DNA from: Rhodanobacter sp. Root480
GTDB lineage: Bacteria; Pseudomonadota; Gammaproteobacteria; Xanthomonadales; Rhodanobacteraceae
NCBI RefSeq assembly: GCF_001426645.1
Contig: NZ_LMEX01000002.1
Coordinates: 124,001-188,000 of the forward strand
Direction of reading: 5' to 3'
Length of the DNA stretch: 64,000 nucleotides
This document shows, in pieces, positions 47,940 to 54,711 of this stretch. The stretch's first letter is position 1. Each line of letters starts with the position of its first letter. Position numbers and translations under genes: made by a program. The notes under the pieces were generated by a model. It searched no databases, was not told the DNA's origin, and was given only the letters and a program-made list of their open reading frames with translations.

Positions 47940-48239
47940 TCAGTCGCCCATCTTCCCGTCGGTTTTCTTCATGCCGGCTTTTTTCATGGCGCCCATCTTT
48001 CCGGCGTCGTGCTTCATGGCACCGTGGTGCATGGCATCCATCTTCATGCCGTCTTTCTGCATGCTGTTTTTCTGCATGGCGTCGTGCGACATGGCGCCCT
48101 TCATGGCGTTCGCGTGCATGGCATCGCCGTGCGCCATCGCGGTGCTGGAACTGGGGGCCATCGCGTCCTGTGCGAAAGCCGAGGTAAAGGCGAGGCCACT
48201 GGCGGCGAGGATCAGGGCGGCAAACAACGTGGTTTTCAT
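47940..48239 (-). CDS. Methionine-rich periplasmic peptide (pentapeptide MXKDX-type; MrpX-like candidate)
   Basis: A 99-residue protein with a signal peptide (KTTLFAALILAASGLAFTSA, cut after AFA) and a 76-residue mature part with 15 Met, 6 His, many Lys and Asp and no Cys, in loose repeats such as DAMQKNSMQKDGMKMDAM. AGGAG precedes the ATG at 48239. It is the third gene of sigF-nrsF-peptide. Proteins of this kind are named pentapeptide MXKDX proteins. In Azospira a comparable Met-rich peptide, MrpX, controlled by SigF/NrsF, scavenges hypochlorite and is regenerated by a methionine sulfoxide reductase. The same role here is inference; metal binding is an alternative. Confidence 0.85.
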   Translation of the reverse strand: MKTTLFAALILAASGLAFTSAFAQDAMAPSSSTAMAHGDAMHANAMKGAMSHDAMQKNSMQKDGMKMDAMHHGAMKHDAGKMGAMKKAGMKKTDGKMGD

Positions 48240-48351
48240 GGCGTTGACTCCTGCAGGAAAGGGATGGAGACAGGCGTCTCCATCCTTTTCTTCGCCAGCG
48301 TCGCGACCGTGGTTACGTCCTGGATCGTTGCCGCCAGCCCGCAAGCACCGC

Positions 48352-49005
48352 TCAGTGCCTCGACAGCAATCGCCCACCCATGGCGGCATTCGCCGCCACC
48401 ACCACGACCACGGCGGCGGCGTGGGCCAGCAGGTCGGTGGCGGCGGCGCCGTAGGCGTGGCAGATCTCCAGCAGGCTGGCCGAGGCCGCCGCGCTGGCCA
48501 GGCCGATCAGCACCGCGGTGAGCACCGGCCGCAACGGGCAGGCGCGGCGCAGCAGCCAGATCAGCAGAGCCGACAGCGGGATCGAGAAGGCCAGGATGAA
48601 ATACAGGCAGTCGGGCGCGGGATGGGTGCGGGTCAACTGCGCCGCTGGCTCCACCCAGGTACGCAGGCACCCCAGGCCGCTGGCGCCGATCCACAGCAGG
48701 GCCGGCGGTAGCGGCAGCCAGGCCCAGATCGCCCGCCGCCCGGGCATGCCCGAGACGAACGCCGCCCACGCCGCGCAGATCGCGGTAAGCACCGCCCCGG
48801 CGGTGGCCCAGCCCATGTCCGGCGACGCCTGCCAGCGCTCCATCGCGATGCCGGTGCCGTAGCGCAGCAGCAAGGCCACGGCCAGCGCCGCCACCACCAG
48901 CAGCCACCCCAGCGTACGCAGCCACGGCGGCGGCAACCGGCGCACCGGCACCAGGCCAGCGCCCAGCGCGTGGATCAGGGTTTCATGGCGGGGTGAGTCG
49001 GACAT
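48352..49005 (-). CDS. nrsF: NrsF family anti-sigma factor (DUF1109)
   Basis: A 217-residue inner-membrane protein with about six helices (WLLVVAALAVALLLRY, AVLTAICAAWAAFVSGMPG, CLYFILAFSIPLSALLIWLL, AVLIGLASAAASASLLEICH and others). It begins with the DUF1109 cytosolic head DSPRHETLIHALGAGLVPVR. NrsF holds SigF inactive at the membrane until stress; conserved Cys in the helices are thought to be the sensor, and here Cys occur at GLGCLRTW, APDCLYF, RACPLRP and LEICHAY. The ATG at 49005 lies 5 bp after the sigF stop; a TTG at 49014 would overlap it. Confidence 0.9.
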   Translation of the reverse strand: MSDSPRHETLIHALGAGLVPVRRLPPPWLRTLGWLLVVAALAVALLLRYGTGIAMERWQASPDMGWATAGAVLTAICAAWAAFVSGMPGRRAIWAWLPLPPALLWIGASGLGCLRTWVEPAAQLTRTHPAPDCLYFILAFSIPLSALLIWLLRRACPLRPVLTAVLIGLASAAASASLLEICHAYGAAATDLLAHAAAVVVVVAANAAMGGRLLSRH

Positions 49006-49010
49006 GCTGC

Positions 49011-49673
49011 TCAAGGTTCTCCGTTGAAATGGCGGCGCAGCGATTTCAGCCCGCGATGCAGGTTCACTTTCAGCGAGCCGGCGCTGCGCCCGGTCTGCCC
49101 GGAGGCTTCGGCCAGTGTGCGTTCGCGCAAGCCCAGTTGTTCGACCGCCTCGCGCTGGCCCGGCGGCAATTCATCGATGGCCGCGCGCAGGCGTTGCGCG
49201 TCCTGCTGGCGCTCGCTGGCGGCACTGGCATCGTCGGCGTCGGGGTGGCGATCCAACGCGAACTCGTCGTGCAACTCGCGGCTGTCGCGACGCCCGCGGC
49301 TGCGCAGCGCATCGATGGCGCGGCGGCTGGCGATGGCATTGAGCCAGGCGTCGTACGAGCGCGACGGGTCGTAGGTATGCCGCACGCGATCCACGGTGAT
49401 CAGGGTTTCCTGCACCACGTCATCGACGTGATCCCGCGCCACACCCTGCCGCCGTGCGGCCGCGCGGATCAGCGGGATCGAGTCGGCCAGCAGCTTCTCG
49501 TACGCGATCCGATCGCCGGCCTGCGCGGCCGCCATCCACGCCGCCCGCCGCTGGTCGGCGGTTTCGATGGCGCTGGTGGCGGGGCTGGCTGGCACGCGGT
49601 ATCTGACGCTCGATCGACGGGGGAGCGCATCATCAGAGACCATCGGGCCCGCGGCGGTCAAGGGCTGCAACAT
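49011..49673 (-). CDS. sigF: ECF sigma factor, SigF-like
   Basis: A 220-residue ECF sigma factor. Region 2 is IPLIRAAARRQGVARDHVDD followed by VVQETLITVDRVRHTYDPSR and WLNAIASRRAIDALR. Region 4 is LPPGQREAVEQLGLRERTLA and RSAGSLKVNLHRGLKSLRRH. The start is set by the promoter: an upstream ATG at 49703 lies inside the -10 element, so it cannot be translated from that promoter, whereas the ATG at 49673 follows GGAGAAA. NrsF, its anti-sigma factor, is next. Predicted to recognise GTAACC-N16-CGAA and to drive itself. Confidence 0.92.
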   Translation of the reverse strand: MLQPLTAAGPMVSDDALPRRSSVRYRVPASPATSAIETADQRRAAWMAAAQAGDRIAYEKLLADSIPLIRAAARRQGVARDHVDDVVQETLITVDRVRHTYDPSRSYDAWLNAIASRRAIDALRSRGRRDSRELHDEFALDRHPDADDASAASERQQDAQRLRAAIDELPPGQREAVEQLGLRERTLAEASGQTGRSAGSLKVNLHRGLKSLRRHFNGEP

Positions 49674-49702
49674 TTTCTCCGACCAGACTTTCTCACCCTG
49701 CA

Positions 49703-49728
49703 TTCGCTGCGCACGCGACCAGGGTTAC
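49703..49728 (-). promoter_or_regulatory. SigF-type promoter of sigF-nrsF-(Met-rich peptide)
   Basis: On the minus strand GTAACC (49723-49728), exactly 16 bp, then CGAA (49703-49706). This is the GTAACC-N16-CGAA element I recall for sigma-F of Caulobacter. It predicts a start point near 49697, about 24 nt before the sigF ATG at 49673, i.e. autoregulation. Confidence 0.8.
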
Positions 49729-49741
49729 CTCGTCACCGCAT

Positions 49742-49767
49742 GTAACCGCACAGCGCCGCCCGGCGAA
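49742..49767 (+). promoter_or_regulatory. SigF-type promoter of dipZ-msrB
   Basis: GTAACC (49742-49747), exactly 16 bp, then CGAA (49764-49767), the same element as in the opposite direction at 49703-49728. It lies 30 bp before the dipZ start. The two -35 elements are back to back, 13 bp apart, so both operons should respond to SigF together. Confidence 0.8.
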
Positions 49768-49797
49768 TAGCTGACAAACCCCTCGCGGACGACGCTC

Positions 49798-51519
49798 ATG
49801 CTCGTACTGATCATTGCCTACCTCGGCGGCGTGCTGACCATCCTCAGCCCGTGCATCCTGCCGGTGCTGCCCTTCGTGTTCGCCCGCTCGGACCGCCCGT
49901 TCAAGCGCAACGGCCTGCCGATGCTGCTAGGCATGGCGATCACGTTTGCGGCGGTGGCCACGCTGGCCGCGCTGGGTGGCGGCTGGGTCATCCACGCCAA
50001 CCAGTACGGCCGCTACGTGGCGATGCTGGTGCTGGCGTTCCTGGGCCTGGCGCTGCTGTCCACGCGGGTGGCCGAGTGGATCAGCCGGCCGTTCGTGGCG
50101 CTGGGCGGACGGCTGACCCGGCAAGCGGGCGAGCGCGATTCGATCTGGGCCTCCGCCGGCCTGGGCGTCGCCACCGGCCTGCTGTGGGCGCCGTGCGCGG
50201 GGCCGATCCTGGGCCTGCTGCTGACCGGCGCGGCATTGAACGGTGCCAGCGTGCAGACCACCCTGTTGCTGCTGACCTACGCCGCCGGCGCCGCCACTTC
50301 GCTGGGCCTGGCGTTGCTGCTGGGCGGCAAGGTGTTCGCGCTGATGAAGCGCTCGCTGGGCGCGGGTGAATGGGTGCGTCGCGGACTGGGCGCGCTGGTG
50401 CTGTGCGGCGTGGCGGCGATCGCGCTGGGCCTGGATACCGGCCTGCTGACGCGCGTATCGCTGGCCAGCACCGGCGGCATCGAGCAGAAGCTGCTGGATG
50501 CGGTGCGGCCGGCGCCGGTGAACGCCGCCACCGTGGTGAAACCCGGCGAACCGCTGCCGGTGGAAGGCGAACTGCCGTCGCTGGCTGGCGCCACGCAGTG
50601 GCTCAACAGCCCGCCGCTGACCGCGCAGTCGCTGCGCGGCAAGGTGGTACTGGTGGATTTCTGGACCTACTCCTGCATCAACTGCCTGCGTTCGCTGCCC
50701 TACGTGCGCGGCTGGGCCGACAAGTACAAGGACCACGGCCTGGTGGTGATCGGCGTGCACGCGCCAGAGTTCGCCTTCGAAAAGGATCCAGCCAACGTGG
50801 CCAAGGCGGTGAAGGACCTGGGCGTGGATTACCCGGTAGCGCTGGATAACAACTACGCCATCTGGCAAGGCTTCAACAATCAATACTGGCCGGCGCATTA
50901 CTTCATCGACGCCCAGGGCCGCATCCGGCACCACCATTTCGGCGAGGGCGCCTACCCGGAAAGCGAGGACGTGATCCGCCGGTTGCTGAGCGAAGCGGGC
51001 TACAAGAACCTGCCCGGCGGCTATGTCAGCGCGGACCACCGCGGCGTGGAAGCGGCCGATTCGGGTGATGCCACCCGCTCGCCCGAGACCTACGTGGGCT
51101 ACGCCCGCGCCCGCAACTTCGTCAGCGGTCGCGTCGCCCATGACGACGCCTGGAACTACCGCGCGCCCGACGCGCTGGGCACCAACCAGTGGTCGCTGGA
51201 CGGCCGCTGGAACGTGCACGCGGAAAACGCGCAACTGCTGCAGGCCGGCGGCCGCATCGTCTACCGCTTCCGCGGCCGCGACCTGCACCTGGTGCTGGGC
51301 CCGGCCAGCGACGGCAAGCCCGTGCGCTTCCGCGTCACCCTCGACGGCAAGGCGCCCGGCGCCGACCACGGCATGGATACCGACGCCGGGGGCAACGGCG
51401 TCATCACCGGCCAGCGGCTGTACCAGCTGGTGCGCCAGGCCAACGGCAGCGGCGAGCGGGTGTTCGAGATCACCTTCCTCGACCCGGGTGTACAAGCGTT
51501 CGCGTTCACCTTCGGCTGA
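49798..51519 (+). CDS. dipZ: DipZ-type thiol-disulfide transporter: CcdA domain fused to a periplasmic thioredoxin
   Basis: Moves electrons from cytosolic thioredoxin across the membrane to periplasmic thiols. The 573-residue protein has an N-terminal CcdA domain with the redox Cys19 in LSPCILPVLPFVF and Cys133 in LWAPCAGPILGLLL, among about six helices. A thioredoxin/TlpA-like domain follows with WTYSCINC (Cys293, Cys296) and GVHAPEFAFEKDPANVAKAV, then a C-terminal beta domain of about 150 residues (NQWSLDGRWNVHAENAQLLQ) as in mycobacterial DipZ. A SigF-type promoter precedes it, and msrB follows after a REP pair. It is the likely electron donor for MsrB. Confidence 0.93.
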   Translation: MLVLIIAYLGGVLTILSPCILPVLPFVFARSDRPFKRNGLPMLLGMAITFAAVATLAALGGGWVIHANQYGRYVAMLVLAFLGLALLSTRVAEWISRPFVALGGRLTRQAGERDSIWASAGLGVATGLLWAPCAGPILGLLLTGAALNGASVQTTLLLLTYAAGAATSLGLALLLGGKVFALMKRSLGAGEWVRRGLGALVLCGVAAIALGLDTGLLTRVSLASTGGIEQKLLDAVRPAPVNAATVVKPGEPLPVEGELPSLAGATQWLNSPPLTAQSLRGKVVLVDFWTYSCINCLRSLPYVRGWADKYKDHGLVVIGVHAPEFAFEKDPANVAKAVKDLGVDYPVALDNNYAIWQGFNNQYWPAHYFIDAQGRIRHHHFGEGAYPESEDVIRRLLSEAGYKNLPGGYVSADHRGVEAADSGDATRSPETYVGYARARNFVSGRVAHDDAWNYRAPDALGTNQWSLDGRWNVHAENAQLLQAGGRIVYRFRGRDLHLVLGPASDGKPVRFRVTLDGKAPGADHGMDTDAGGNGVITGQRLYQLVRQANGSGERVFEITFLDPGVQAFAFTFG

Positions 51520-51542
51520 GGAAACGCCCACCAATCCCCCCT

Positions 51543-51616
51543 GTAGGAGCGACTTCAGTCGCGACCGCTTTTCGCGGACCCAAGCCAAGAGCGTCGCGGC
51601 TGAAGCCGCTCCTACC
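51543..51616. repeat. REP-like inverted pair inside the dipZ-msrB operon
   Basis: GTAGGAGCGACTTCAGTCGC (51543 on) and GTCGCGGCTGAAGCCGCTCC (51592 on) fold toward each other. Elsewhere in the window such pairs separate convergent genes; here the pair lies between two co-directional genes and may lower msrB expression relative to dipZ, or stabilise dipZ mRNA. Confidence 0.8.
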
Positions 51617-51650
51617 GAAGTGCCGATCCACGTCCCAACGGAGGCAAGCC

Positions 51651-52250
51651 ATGTCACGCATCGATGAAACCCTCGCGATGGACCGGCGCCGCTTTCTGCG
51701 CGCCGCACTGACCGGTGGCGCCGTGCTGGCGGTGGGCGGTGGTCTGCTGGCGCCGAGGTTGTTCGCGGCCGCCGCTACACCGGTCGGCAAGCCGGGCAAG
51801 GTGTTGCTGGAGATTTTCGCCGACGACGGCCGCGACCTCGGTGCGCGCGAGGTGCCCAGGCTGGTGCTCAGCAACGCGCAGTGGCGGCAGCGGCTGTCGC
51901 CGCCGGCATTCGGCATCCTGCGCCAGGCGGGTACCGAGCGGGCGTTCACCGGCGCCTATTGGAACCTGTTCGCGCCCGGCCTGTACCGCTGCGCCGGTTG
52001 CGGCACCGCGCTGTACGACGCGGCCACCAAGTTCCACTCCGGCACCGGCTGGCCCAGCTTCTACCAGCCGATCGCCCGCACCAATGTCACCCGCCACAGC
52101 GACCACCAGTTCGGCATGCAACGCACGGCCATCAACTGCGCCTGCTGCGGCGGCCACTTGGGCCATGTCTTCAACGACGGCCCGCGGCCCACCGGCCTGC
52201 GCTACTGCATGAACTCGGCGGCGCTGCACTTCATTCCGCACGCCGCCTGA
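51651..52250 (+). CDS. msrB: Peptide-methionine (R)-S-oxide reductase MsrB, Tat-exported
   Basis: Repairs the R form of methionine sulfoxide in proteins. The 199-residue protein has a Tat-type leader, MDRRRFLRAALTGGAVLAVG, ending near LFAAAA. The MsrB domain then follows: AFTGAYWNLFAPGLYRCAGC, FHSGTGWPSFYQPI, zinc pairs CAGC and CACC in NCACCGGHLGHVFNDGP, and catalytic Cys186 in RYCMNSAALHF. The usual RFC[IV]N is RYCMN here. The enzyme should act in the periplasm, where DipZ could re-reduce it. No msrA or msrP is in the window, so the S epimer would need another enzyme. Confidence 0.95.
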   Translation: MSRIDETLAMDRRRFLRAALTGGAVLAVGGGLLAPRLFAAAATPVGKPGKVLLEIFADDGRDLGAREVPRLVLSNAQWRQRLSPPAFGILRQAGTERAFTGAYWNLFAPGLYRCAGCGTALYDAATKFHSGTGWPSFYQPIARTNVTRHSDHQFGMQRTAINCACCGGHLGHVFNDGPRPTGLRYCMNSAALHFIPHAA

Positions 52251-52416: not shown

Positions 52417-52545
52417 TCCGATACGCCGGTTGCTCACCGTCGTCTTGGCAGTGCGGAAACAACCTCGCGCGCCTGGCGCGGTCGATCCATCGACCACGCG
52501 GCGCTTGCGCGGCTGCCTCTCCCACGTCTCAGAAACAGGGCCTCC

Positions 52546-54711
52546 ATGTCATCGTCCCCCGCTCCGACCGCCGCTGCGCGCCGCCACTCATCCCTACACC
52601 GTGCCATCCGCGCCGCCCTGCTCGGCGTGCCGCTGCTCGCCGCACTGACGATGGTGACTCCGGCCCACGCCGATGACGCCGACGCATCCACACCGCAATC
52701 CGCCACCGCGCTGTCGGGCGTGCAAGTCACGGCGCCGATCGCGCGGGAAAGCGATTCGGTGACCAAGACCGACACGCCGATCATCGAGATCCCGCAGTCG
52801 GTGTCGGTGATCACCGCCGAGCAATTGAGCCAGCGCGGCATCCAAGGCATCGAGGAGGCCGTGTGGTACACCGCCGGCGCCCAAGGCGGCGGCTACGGTG
52901 CCGACGCGCGCAGCGACTGGATGCTGGTGCGCGGCTTCACTCCCGCCCGCTATCTCGACGGTTTGGCGCTGCCCGAAGGTTCGGGCACCAGCATCACCCG
53001 TATCGAGCCCTACGGGCTGGAGCGGCTGGAGGTGATCAAGGGCCCGTCGTCGGTGGTTTACGGCGCGATGCCGCCCGGCGGCATGGTCAACATGGTGAGC
53101 AAGCGCCCCACCGCGCAGCCGCTGCACGAAGTGGGCGTGGAGGTGGGCAGTTTCGACTTGCGCCAGGGCACGTTCGATTTCGCCGGCCCGCTGAACGATT
53201 CGGGCACGCTGCTCTATCGCCTCACCGGCCTGGCCCGCAACAGCGACACCATGACCGACTACATCAAGGACGACCGCTACTACCTCGCCCCCGCGCTGAC
53301 CTGGAAGCCGGACGACAACACCTCGTTGACCGTGCTGTCGCGCTACCAGAAGGCCGAGACCGCCTCCGGCGCCGGCTTCCTGCCCGCGGAAGGCACCTTG
53401 CTGCCCAGCCCGCACGGCAAGATCCCGCGCGACCGCTTCACCGGCGAGCCGGGCCAGAACGACTACGACAAGACGCTGGCCTCGATCGGCTACGAATTCC
53501 ACCACGACTTCGCCAACGGCCTGGCGTTCAACCAGAACCTGCGCTACGGCACCGCCGACGTGGACAACAACGGCGCCAACGTGGGCGCCTTCGGCCTGCT
53601 CGGCGACGGCCGCACCCTGCTGCGCTACCTGTTCCCGAACGAGAACCACACCAGGACCTTCGGCGTCGACAACAACCTGCAATACGTGTTCGACAACGGC
53701 CGCGTGCAGCACACGCTGCTGGCCGGCGTGGACTACCGCCGCGCCAACGACGACTACGCCTCCGCGTTCGACTTCGGCGTTGGCGGGCTGGACGTGTTCG
53801 ACCCGGTCTACGGCAGCCCGGTCACCGTGCCTGCGTACACCGTCCACACCGTGCAGGTGCAGTCGCAACTGGGCGTCTATCTGCAGGACCAGATCAAGGT
53901 CGGCCGCTGGAGCATCACCGCGGGCGGGCGCCAGGATCATGTCCGCACCGACACCGACAACCAGCTGGCCGGCACCAGCGCCGGTCAGACCGACCGCGCG
54001 TTCTCCGGCCGCGTGGGCATCAACTACCTGTTCGACAACGGACTGGCACCGTACGTGTCGTGGTCGCATTCGTTCCAGCCCACGGTAGGCACGAACTTCG
54101 ACGGCAACGCGTTCAAACCCACTACCGGCGACCAGTACGAAGCCGGCCTCAAATACCAGCCCGCCGGCGGCAACGGCCTGGTCACCCTGGCGGCCTACCA
54201 GATCACCCAGCAGAACTCGCTGACGGTCGACCCGAACCATGCACTGTTCCAGGTGCAGCAGGGCGAAACGCGGTTGCGCGGCGTGGAGCTGGAAGGCCGC
54301 TGGAATCTCGGCACGCACCTGGCCATCTACGGCGGCTACACCTGGAGCGATTCGGAAGTCACCCGCACCAACGACCTGCCCTCGCTGGGCAAGCAGATCG
54401 CGCTGTTGCCCAAACAGCAGGCTTCGCTGGGGCTTGATTACACCGTGGTCGCCGGGCCGCTGGCGGGCCTCGGTTTCGGCGGCGGCGTGCGCTACATCGG
54501 CAGCCATTACGGCGACATCTACAACGAGTGGAAGACGCCTTCGTACACCCTGTTCGACGCCGCCGTGCATTACGACGTGGGCGACTGGCGGCTGCAGTTG
54601 AATGCCAGCAACCTGTTCGACAAGGAGTACGTCTCCGCCTGCAACAGCGCCGCGTGGTGCTACTACGGCTACGAGCGCAGCGTGACCGTCAGCGCGCGCT
54701 ACCGCTGGTAA
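52546..54711 (+). CDS. TonB-dependent siderophore receptor (FhuE/FhuA-like)
   Basis: An outer-membrane receptor of 721 residues. A signal peptide (LLGVPLLAALTMVTPAHADD) is followed by the plug domain IIEIPQSVSVITAEQLSQRG, MLVRGFTPARYLDGLALPEG, IEPYGLERLEVIKGPSSVVY and PPGGMVNMVSKRPT, typical of hydroxamate siderophore receptors. A 22-strand barrel follows and ends in the aromatic RYRW. The Fur box at 52398 supports iron control. Downstream genes (two small membrane proteins and a PepSY protein) form the usual companion set. The ligand cannot be told from the sequence. Confidence 0.95.
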   Translation: MSSSPAPTAAARRHSSLHRAIRAALLGVPLLAALTMVTPAHADDADASTPQSATALSGVQVTAPIARESDSVTKTDTPIIEIPQSVSVITAEQLSQRGIQGIEEAVWYTAGAQGGGYGADARSDWMLVRGFTPARYLDGLALPEGSGTSITRIEPYGLERLEVIKGPSSVVYGAMPPGGMVNMVSKRPTAQPLHEVGVEVGSFDLRQGTFDFAGPLNDSGTLLYRLTGLARNSDTMTDYIKDDRYYLAPALTWKPDDNTSLTVLSRYQKAETASGAGFLPAEGTLLPSPHGKIPRDRFTGEPGQNDYDKTLASIGYEFHHDFANGLAFNQNLRYGTADVDNNGANVGAFGLLGDGRTLLRYLFPNENHTRTFGVDNNLQYVFDNGRVQHTLLAGVDYRRANDDYASAFDFGVGGLDVFDPVYGSPVTVPAYTVHTVQVQSQLGVYLQDQIKVGRWSITAGGRQDHVRTDTDNQLAGTSAGQTDRAFSGRVGINYLFDNGLAPYVSWSHSFQPTVGTNFDGNAFKPTTGDQYEAGLKYQPAGGNGLVTLAAYQITQQNSLTVDPNHALFQVQQGETRLRGVELEGRWNLGTHLAIYGGYTWSDSEVTRTNDLPSLGKQIALLPKQQASLGLDYTVVAGPLAGLGFGGGVRYIGSHYGDIYNEWKTPSYTLFDAAVHYDVGDWRLQLNASNLFDKEYVSACNSAAWCYYGYERSVTVSARYRW

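Follow-up and report, generated by a model that had tools for sequence, protein, structure and literature searches.

Repair of oxidised methionine (Met) in the bacterial periplasm is usually told as the story of the molybdenum system MsrPQ, with methionine-sulfoxide reductases (Msr) of the MsrAB type doing this work in a few pathogens; in pneumococci and oral streptococci, CcdA has a role in the CcdA-Etrx-MsrAB system. A hypochlorite cycle formed by SigF/NrsF, MrpX and YedY1 in Azospira suillum was reportedly described by Melnyk in 2015. In this work, we focus on a stretch of 64,000 nucleotides (nt) of Rhodanobacter sp. Root480 (contig NZ_LMEX01000002.1; hereafter the window, meaning the whole stretch), in which the genes for an extracytoplasmic function (ECF) sigma factor, SigF, its membrane anti-sigma factor, NrsF, and an exported Met-rich peptide, mrp, diverge from dipZ and msrB. 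We consider it likely that these genes belong, together with a distant gene for a lipoprotein MsrA, to a SigF (ECF16-type) regulon for the repair of methionine sulfoxide (MetO) in the periplasm.

In the parts of the published accounts drawn on here, several systems come close to this arrangement. In A. suillum, the peptide MrpX and the MsrP-type reductase YedY1 are under SigF/NrsF-type control, and two perchlorate islands were reported in 2015 to hold MsrA/MsrB predicted to be exported and grouped functionally with sigF/nrsF, yedYZ and mrpX (PMC4623255). Rhodanobacter shares with Azospira the type of sigma/anti-sigma pair, the exported Met-rich peptide and a periplasmic MetO reductase under one regulator, but the Azospira reductase is of the molybdenum MsrP type, whereas the Rhodanobacter genome gave no match to MsrP and has, together with DipZ, a twin-arginine translocation (Tat)-type MsrB and an MsrA of lipoprotein type. 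The Brucella BcrS/AbcS-BcrXQP system likewise joins an ECF16 sigma factor, a DUF1109 anti-sigma factor, an MXKDX peptide and a MetO reductase; BcrS/BcrXQP is induced by hypochlorous acid (HOCl) and contributes to HOCl resistance, but through MsrPQ homologues where Rhodanobacter has a thiol-type MsrA/MsrB pair (PMC8315932). The autoregulated EcfF (ECF16) of Bradyrhizobium, which has a GTAAC-type promoter, controls three Msr genes, one of them predicted to be exported, and also the genes for the DsbD-like Bll1027 and the membrane-anchored thioredoxin Bll1026, which were proposed in 2012 as electron donor (PMC3420878). The sigma factor class, the Msr targets, the kind of donor and the promoter type are thus alike, but the Bradyrhizobium donor consists of two proteins at another locus, whereas in Rhodanobacter a single DipZ fusion adjoins msrB, and the EcfF/OsrA account, in the parts drawn on, names no Met-rich peptide (PMC3420878). 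Among pathogens with a periplasmic MsrAB, Neisseria and Haemophilus place this single exported thiol-type enzyme under an ECF sigma factor, SigE/RpoE2, with a link to HOCl; their anti-sigma factor is, however, small and like the zinc-binding ECF group 13 type, and the term 'methionine-rich' is absent from the paper (PMC7907618). In the pneumococcal and oral streptococcal CcdA-Etrx-MsrAB system, extracytoplasmic Msr enzymes are also fed via thioredoxin-fold proteins, but this is a Gram-positive surface system for which the parts drawn on note no peptide (PMC3914529, PMC7034828). The initial annotation had taken the Rhodanobacter combination to be undescribed. This holds for the exact combination, since none of the matches listed from the openly licensed PubMed Central (PMC) literature joins a Met-rich peptide, DipZ, Tat-MsrB and MsrA in one regulon, but both halves were foreshadowed in print (PMC3420878, PMC4623255). 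Both halves have precedents, and their combination appears to be new.

The locus is made up of the following features.
47940-48239, minus strand: mrp, exported Met-rich MXKDX pentapeptide-repeat peptide (TIGR02953 match, 99 residues)
48291-48316, minus strand: exact SigF-type promoter GTAACC-N16-CGAA before mrp (motif scan; 51 nt from the end of the -10 element to the ATG)
48352-49014, minus strand: nrsF, DUF1109/NrsF-type membrane anti-sigma factor (PF06532, 65.8 bits; cut-off 26.8)
49011-49703, minus strand: sigF, ECF sigma factor (Sigma70_r2 and r4_2)
49703-49728, minus strand: exact SigF-type promoter for sigF-nrsF, pointing to autoregulation (motif scan)
49742-49767, plus strand: exact SigF-type promoter for dipZ-msrB (motif scan; 30 nt from the end of the -10 element to the dipZ ATG)
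49798-51519, plus strand: dipZ (DsbD_TM, Redoxin and Thioredoxin_10 domains)
51651-52250, plus strand: msrB, Met-R-sulfoxide reductase with twin-arginine leader (SelR, 161.6 bits)

The five genes, with sigF, nrsF and the peptide gene to the left and dipZ and msrB to the right, have the places and orientations first assigned to them, and to these is added the site between nrsF and the mrp ATG, by which mrp has a SigF-type promoter of its own. The motif GTAACC-N16-CGAA is that of Caulobacter SigF (PMC3511200), and the ECF16 promoter consensus is also quoted elsewhere (PMC3420878). On both strands of the 3.67-Mb source genome, it has six exact matches, of which three lie at the locus, before mrp, sigF and dipZ, and a fourth before the lipoprotein msrA. 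The remaining two are unassigned: L006 falls within other frames, and L007 just where a glycosidase-like frame ends, with a frame that carries a lipoprotein signal about 500 nt further on. A genome scan allowing one mismatch was too noisy (166 matches vs 128 for the reversed control), and near-matches were therefore considered only in front of the genes under study.

Conservation was assessed in 116 Rhodanobacteraceae neighbourhoods (100 + 16), of which 105 loci, with the window, form a set of 106 loci of the window's NrsF type, that is, with an NrsF at least 50% identical to that of the window; 10 of the first 100 loci and 25 of the next 40 fell below 50% identity or had no NrsF match, and were excluded from the counts. 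Before sigF, GTAACN-N16-CGAA is present in 105 of the 106 loci, 66 of them with the exact GTAACC; before the first gene on the divergent side, dipZ or msrB, 100 of 104 loci have it, 87 in the exact form. With 300 permuted motifs, the mean numbers of matches were 0.02 for sigF and 0.08 for dipZ/msrB, with maxima of 6 and 12, and when spacers of 14, 15, 17 and 18 nt were tried on the first 91 loci, no site was found before sigF (0 of 91) and no more than 3 of 89 before dipZ/msrB. Chance matches are ruled out by the genome count, the permuted motifs and the spacer controls taken together. The divergent order of dipZ and msrB, in the same direction, is found above chance in 91 of the 106 loci, dipZ being present in 95 and msrB in 100.

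An unbiased scan of four relatives (G149, G155, G192 and G186) returned 23 exact sites. In the first three genomes, seven of ten sites lie upstream of dipZ (three), msrA (three) and mrp (one), and of the other three, one precedes an AhpC/TSA gene, one precedes rpoH and one is without assignment; G186 has 13, dipZ and rpoH among them and 11 without assignment, and the control pattern gave 8. The AhpC/TSA-family protein (L228, in G149) has a signal-like N-terminus and the exact site 101 nt upstream of its gene, and is a possible extra member of the regulon. With regard to rpoH, which codes for the heat-shock sigma factor, 5 of 30 Rhodanobacter loci (L251, L256, L262, L271 and, in the source genome, L269, with GTAACT on contig C2 near 703570) have GTAACN-N16-CGAA with its start roughly 156-162 nt before the gene, and a sixth locus, L260, carries a SigF-like site with a 15-nt spacer. 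In a subclade, envelope oxidation might possibly be linked to the heat-shock response in this way.

The lipoprotein MsrA is a protein of 236 residues with a lipoprotein signal (MIRRTAFRLAPFAAAVMLALSAC), encoded on contig C1 with the exact SigF site 48 nt upstream. At an E value of 1e-60, its orthologue is found in 43 of 45 Rhodanobacter genomes, all 45 of which have some MsrA match, and the 30 best msrA loci of the genus carry the exact site in 27 cases, GTAACT in two and none in one. In a second set of genomes, the site is present in all 26 genomes of other genera with the window's NrsF type (25 exact) and in all seven further Rhodanobacter genomes; it was not found in any of the 15 genomes that gave no NrsF match (for one of these, the upstream stretch was just 200 nt), in any of six with another NrsF type, or in the single Rhodanobacter without NrsF. 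Combined, 60 of 61 sampled genomes with the window-type sigF-nrsF bear the msrA site, vs 2 of 24 without. The initial annotation had expected a system limited to the R epimer of MetO unless another enzyme helped; this limit was not borne out, since the S-epimer enzyme, in the form of this lipoprotein-type MsrA, has the same type of promoter. A second exported-looking tandem pair, a Tat-like lipoprotein-signal MsrB and a lipoprotein MsrA (L064 and L065, C1 near 1041035-1042351), is preceded by a one-mismatch site, GTAACG-N16-CGAA, and was left out of the regulon count.

As regards the regulator, the domain search finds only regions 2 and 4 in SigF, as in an ECF sigma factor. The -10 element ends on the first ATG of its frame (49703), which makes a true start further in, at M11 (49673) or M21 (49643), probable. 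The co-encoded anti-sigma factor that marks the ECF16/DUF1109 class is present, with a PF06532 score well above the cut-off; simple hydropathy gives it five clear helices, the class trait being six transmembrane helices. Its closest named record is from Rhodanobacter fulvus Jip2 (97% identical; the source genome's own record was possibly excluded). Numbered from the 217-residue form (118, 138 and 187 in the alternative numbering), C113 and C133 of NrsF are present in 91 of 91 loci and C182 in 80 of 91. C133 and C182 are 49 residues apart, like C129/C179 of OsrA, a match by spacing only. By analogy with Bradyrhizobium OsrA, these conserved cysteines may sense oxidants.

DipZ has all the traits of its family: a CcdA/DsbD-type membrane domain with two Cys (Cys19 and Cys133), a thioredoxin domain with the CxxC motif YSCINC (Cys293 and Cys296), and a C-terminal Thioredoxin_10 domain. 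Residues 256-518 match the solved DipZ entries 2hyx and 5cyy, presumably of mycobacterial origin, and the CcdA entry 5vkv was also matched. Both YSCINC and WAPCAGPIL are kept in all 80 DipZ of the first 91 loci. MsrB, as first proposed, starts with a predicted Tat leader, the window protein having the twin-arginine N-terminus MDRRRFLRAALTGG, and the motif is found in all 86 MsrB of the same loci. The four Cys of the Zn CxxC pairs and the catalytic Cys, within RYCMN, are likewise present in 86 of 86. The classical resolving-Cys motif of MsrB is SGCGW; in all 86 proteins, this position reads SGTGW. Having no classical resolving Cys, this MsrB would be of a one-Cys type, which suggests that it needs an outside thiol donor. 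About half of the MsrB carry two extra Cys in an N-terminal extension, at positions 56 (41/86) and 67 (40/86), which might be a resolving pair of another kind or a structural one; the source-genome MsrB has neither. The gap between dipZ and msrB holds, at 51540-51618 of the window, a palindrome like a repetitive extragenic palindrome (TGTAGGAGCGACTTCAGTCGCGACC ... GTCGCGGCTGAAGCCGCTCCTACC), which may influence msrB expression. On the 3' side of msrB, the same strand encodes a FhuA/FoxA-like TonB-dependent siderophore receptor (52540-54711 of the window).

The product of mrp has the traits of the MXKDX/MrpX type, namely a score of 59 bits as a protein against TIGR02953 (cut-off 41), Met-rich repeats and a signal peptide placed by eye. 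The first count of 15 Met in 76 mature residues, out of 99, is exact: after cleavage at SAFA-QD, also placed by eye, the mature part has 76 residues with 15 Met, 6 His and no Cys. In a six-frame scan of the genome, the best piece of mrp reached only 31.3 bits against the same model. MXKDX matches (E ≤ 0.001) occur in 61 of 233 Rhodanobacteraceae genomes, 41 of them above the cut-off, and in 54 of 117 genomes with the window's NrsF type vs 7 of 116 without. At least six further genomes of that NrsF type have, beside nrsF, a Met-rich gene that the model missed. A Met-rich peptide gene adjoins nrsF in 26 of 104 loci (two of the 106 were too short for this count), and in 22 of these the gap between them holds a SigF site. 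Among the 28 Rhodanobacter genomes that have an MXKDX match, 26 carry the gene away from nrsF. Wherever they lie, these genes mostly bear the site: it is upstream in 33 of 35 MXKDX loci (34 distinct genes; 31 by script and two more on taking a nearer ATG), its start mostly 73-87 nt before the ATG. The two loci without it comprise one in which no intact start was found and one in a genome without an NrsF match. With the site upstream of MXKDX genes and many genomes giving no MXKDX match, the peptide is a regulon member, but an optional one. Probably, the core is MetO repair in the envelope, to which an optional, often unlinked sacrificial peptide is added.

Across the family, NrsF (PF06532) is present in 138 of 233 genomes, in 136 above the cut-off. 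MsrP (NF003767) exceeds its cut-off in 43 of the 233: in none of the 136 genomes with NrsF and in 43 of the 97 others (Fisher 4e-20, but the clades are not independent). In the source genome, NF003767 had no match. At the level of the Rhodanobacteraceae, MsrPQ thus seems to have been exchanged for a thiol-fed system. Co-occurrence of these genes across the Xanthomonadales, which the initial annotation proposed to look for, was not borne out: in the samples examined, it is limited to the Rhodanobacteraceae. The order as a whole has NrsF in 121 of the 398 genomes searched, 29 of them of other families, and at 24 NrsF loci from 23 of these 29 genomes no msrB was found within about 6 kb, several of these loci being cut by contig ends, and no Met-rich gene by our filter; one other-family locus gave a weak (31%) DipZ-like match. 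With no msrB found within that distance at the 24 loci, we dropped the idea of a dipZ-msrB pair that accompanies SigF throughout the order.

The regulon that we favour is anchored in the gene content, the export signals, the conserved promoter sites and the rarity of the msrA site in genomes where no SigF/NrsF of this type was found, all read directly from the DNA. In this likely scheme, NrsF would keep SigF bound to the membrane and release it once its conserved cysteines are attacked by an oxidant or by a metal that gives rise to oxidation. Freed SigF would then transcribe four units from GTAACN-N16-CGAA: sigF-nrsF, dipZ-msrB, the peptide gene and the lipoprotein msrA. The Met-rich peptide would be exported as a sacrificial sink of Met residues, and MsrB, folded with its Zn and exported by Tat, would reduce the R epimer of MetO, the lipoprotein MsrA taking the S epimer, with envelope proteins and the peptide as their presumed substrates. 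Electrons would flow from cytosolic thioredoxin to the membrane domain of DipZ, then to its periplasmic thioredoxin domain, and finally to MsrB and MsrA. In the Rhodanobacteraceae, this system seems to stand where other bacteria have the molybdenum pair MsrPQ.

Several observations weigh against this scheme. Against NF042994, the equivalog model of Caulobacter NrsF, the window protein scores 19.1 bits, with a cut-off of 300. The msrA site is present in G177 and G184 (86 and 91% complete), neither of which gave an NrsF match, and G168 has NrsF but no such site. An MXKDX match is absent from 63 of the 117 genomes with the window-type sigF-nrsF. The mutual exclusion of MsrP and NrsF follows clades, so that it reflects far fewer independent events than genomes. 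The MsrB2-MsrA2 pair with lipoprotein signals could share the repair work. Finally, msrB is found without dipZ in 9 of 91 loci, so DipZ cannot be the sole possible donor and other donors probably serve. The proposal of the initial annotation, an MsrB fed by DipZ in the role of reductase, is supported in part: the sequence bears out the export signal, a likely thiol donor in DipZ, the joint promoters and the lack of an MsrP match in the source genome.

This last count also bears on another view of DipZ, in which it serves some other client, such as c-type cytochrome assembly, a DsbC-like isomerase or a periplasmic peroxiredoxin, and adjoins msrB only as a fellow SigF target. The loci with msrB alone and the exported-looking AhpC/TSA protein with a SigF site in one relative would fit it; the order and direction of dipZ-msrB, kept in 91 of 106 loci, and an MsrB without the classical resolving Cys that may depend on an outside thiol donor, make it quite improbable. 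The opposite view makes the peptide central: DipZ-MsrB would mainly regenerate it, and the peptide would be the real scavenger, as for MrpX/YedY1 in Azospira. Such a dedicated cycle, which the initial annotation had in mind, is plausible, given the single promoter type of mrp, dipZ-msrB and msrA, the enrichment of MXKDX matches with the window's NrsF, and the precedents in Brucella (PMC8315932) and Azospira (PMC4623255). However, the cycle is not the core, and sigF-nrsF with dipZ-msrB persists in many genomes in which no MXKDX gene was found; the enzymes therefore probably have other substrates, and we hold a dedicated cycle to be rather unlikely.

A response to metals, mainly copper, has also to be weighed. 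Here, SigF would be metal-responsive, a peptide of Met, His, Lys and Asp would bind periplasmic Cu(I) or Ag, and the Msr enzymes would mend secondary damage. The residues of the peptide (6 His along with 15 Met) agree with this, and related SigF loci carry the same motif before DUF2282-type genes, in L149 and L153 (another genus of the same family) and in L367 and L369 (another family); Pfam finds DUF2282, PF05114 and DUF2063 in L149 and DUF2282 in L367, the other genes being assigned by resemblance. We take DUF2282-type operons to be bufferin-type copper systems. With the same motif before them, one type of regulator seems to have two outputs. In Caulobacter, genes are under SigF control during chromium and cadmium stress, and the known SigF set there consists of DUF2282, DUF692 and DUF2063 genes (PMC3511200). 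The targets found in Rhodanobacter, however, are MetO reductases with their probable donor rather than efflux genes, and in Brucella the MXKDX peptide of this class of regulator goes together with Msr genes and responds to HOCl (PMC8315932). A metal response is, on balance, unlikely to be what the locus serves.

Within the repair regulon, we can tentatively propose, with slightly less than even confidence, a complete thiol-driven Met redox cycle in the periplasm, in which DipZ, through MsrB and MsrA, would re-reduce the secreted peptide under one sigma factor, MsrPQ having been displaced. If so, evolution would have given a single peptide strategy two unrelated electron supplies, with a regulator of one kind in both cases. 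The Rhodanobacteraceae would, at any rate, represent another wiring of periplasmic Met repair, in which MsrA and MsrB are exported as two proteins, a DipZ fusion is the likely donor, and the bait peptide is optional. Their regulon can be read from the DNA, the msrA site coming and going with the sigma factor, and it opens, in a soil bacterium, the questions of MXKDX peptides as recyclable sinks, of the clients of DipZ and of oxidant sensing by NrsF.

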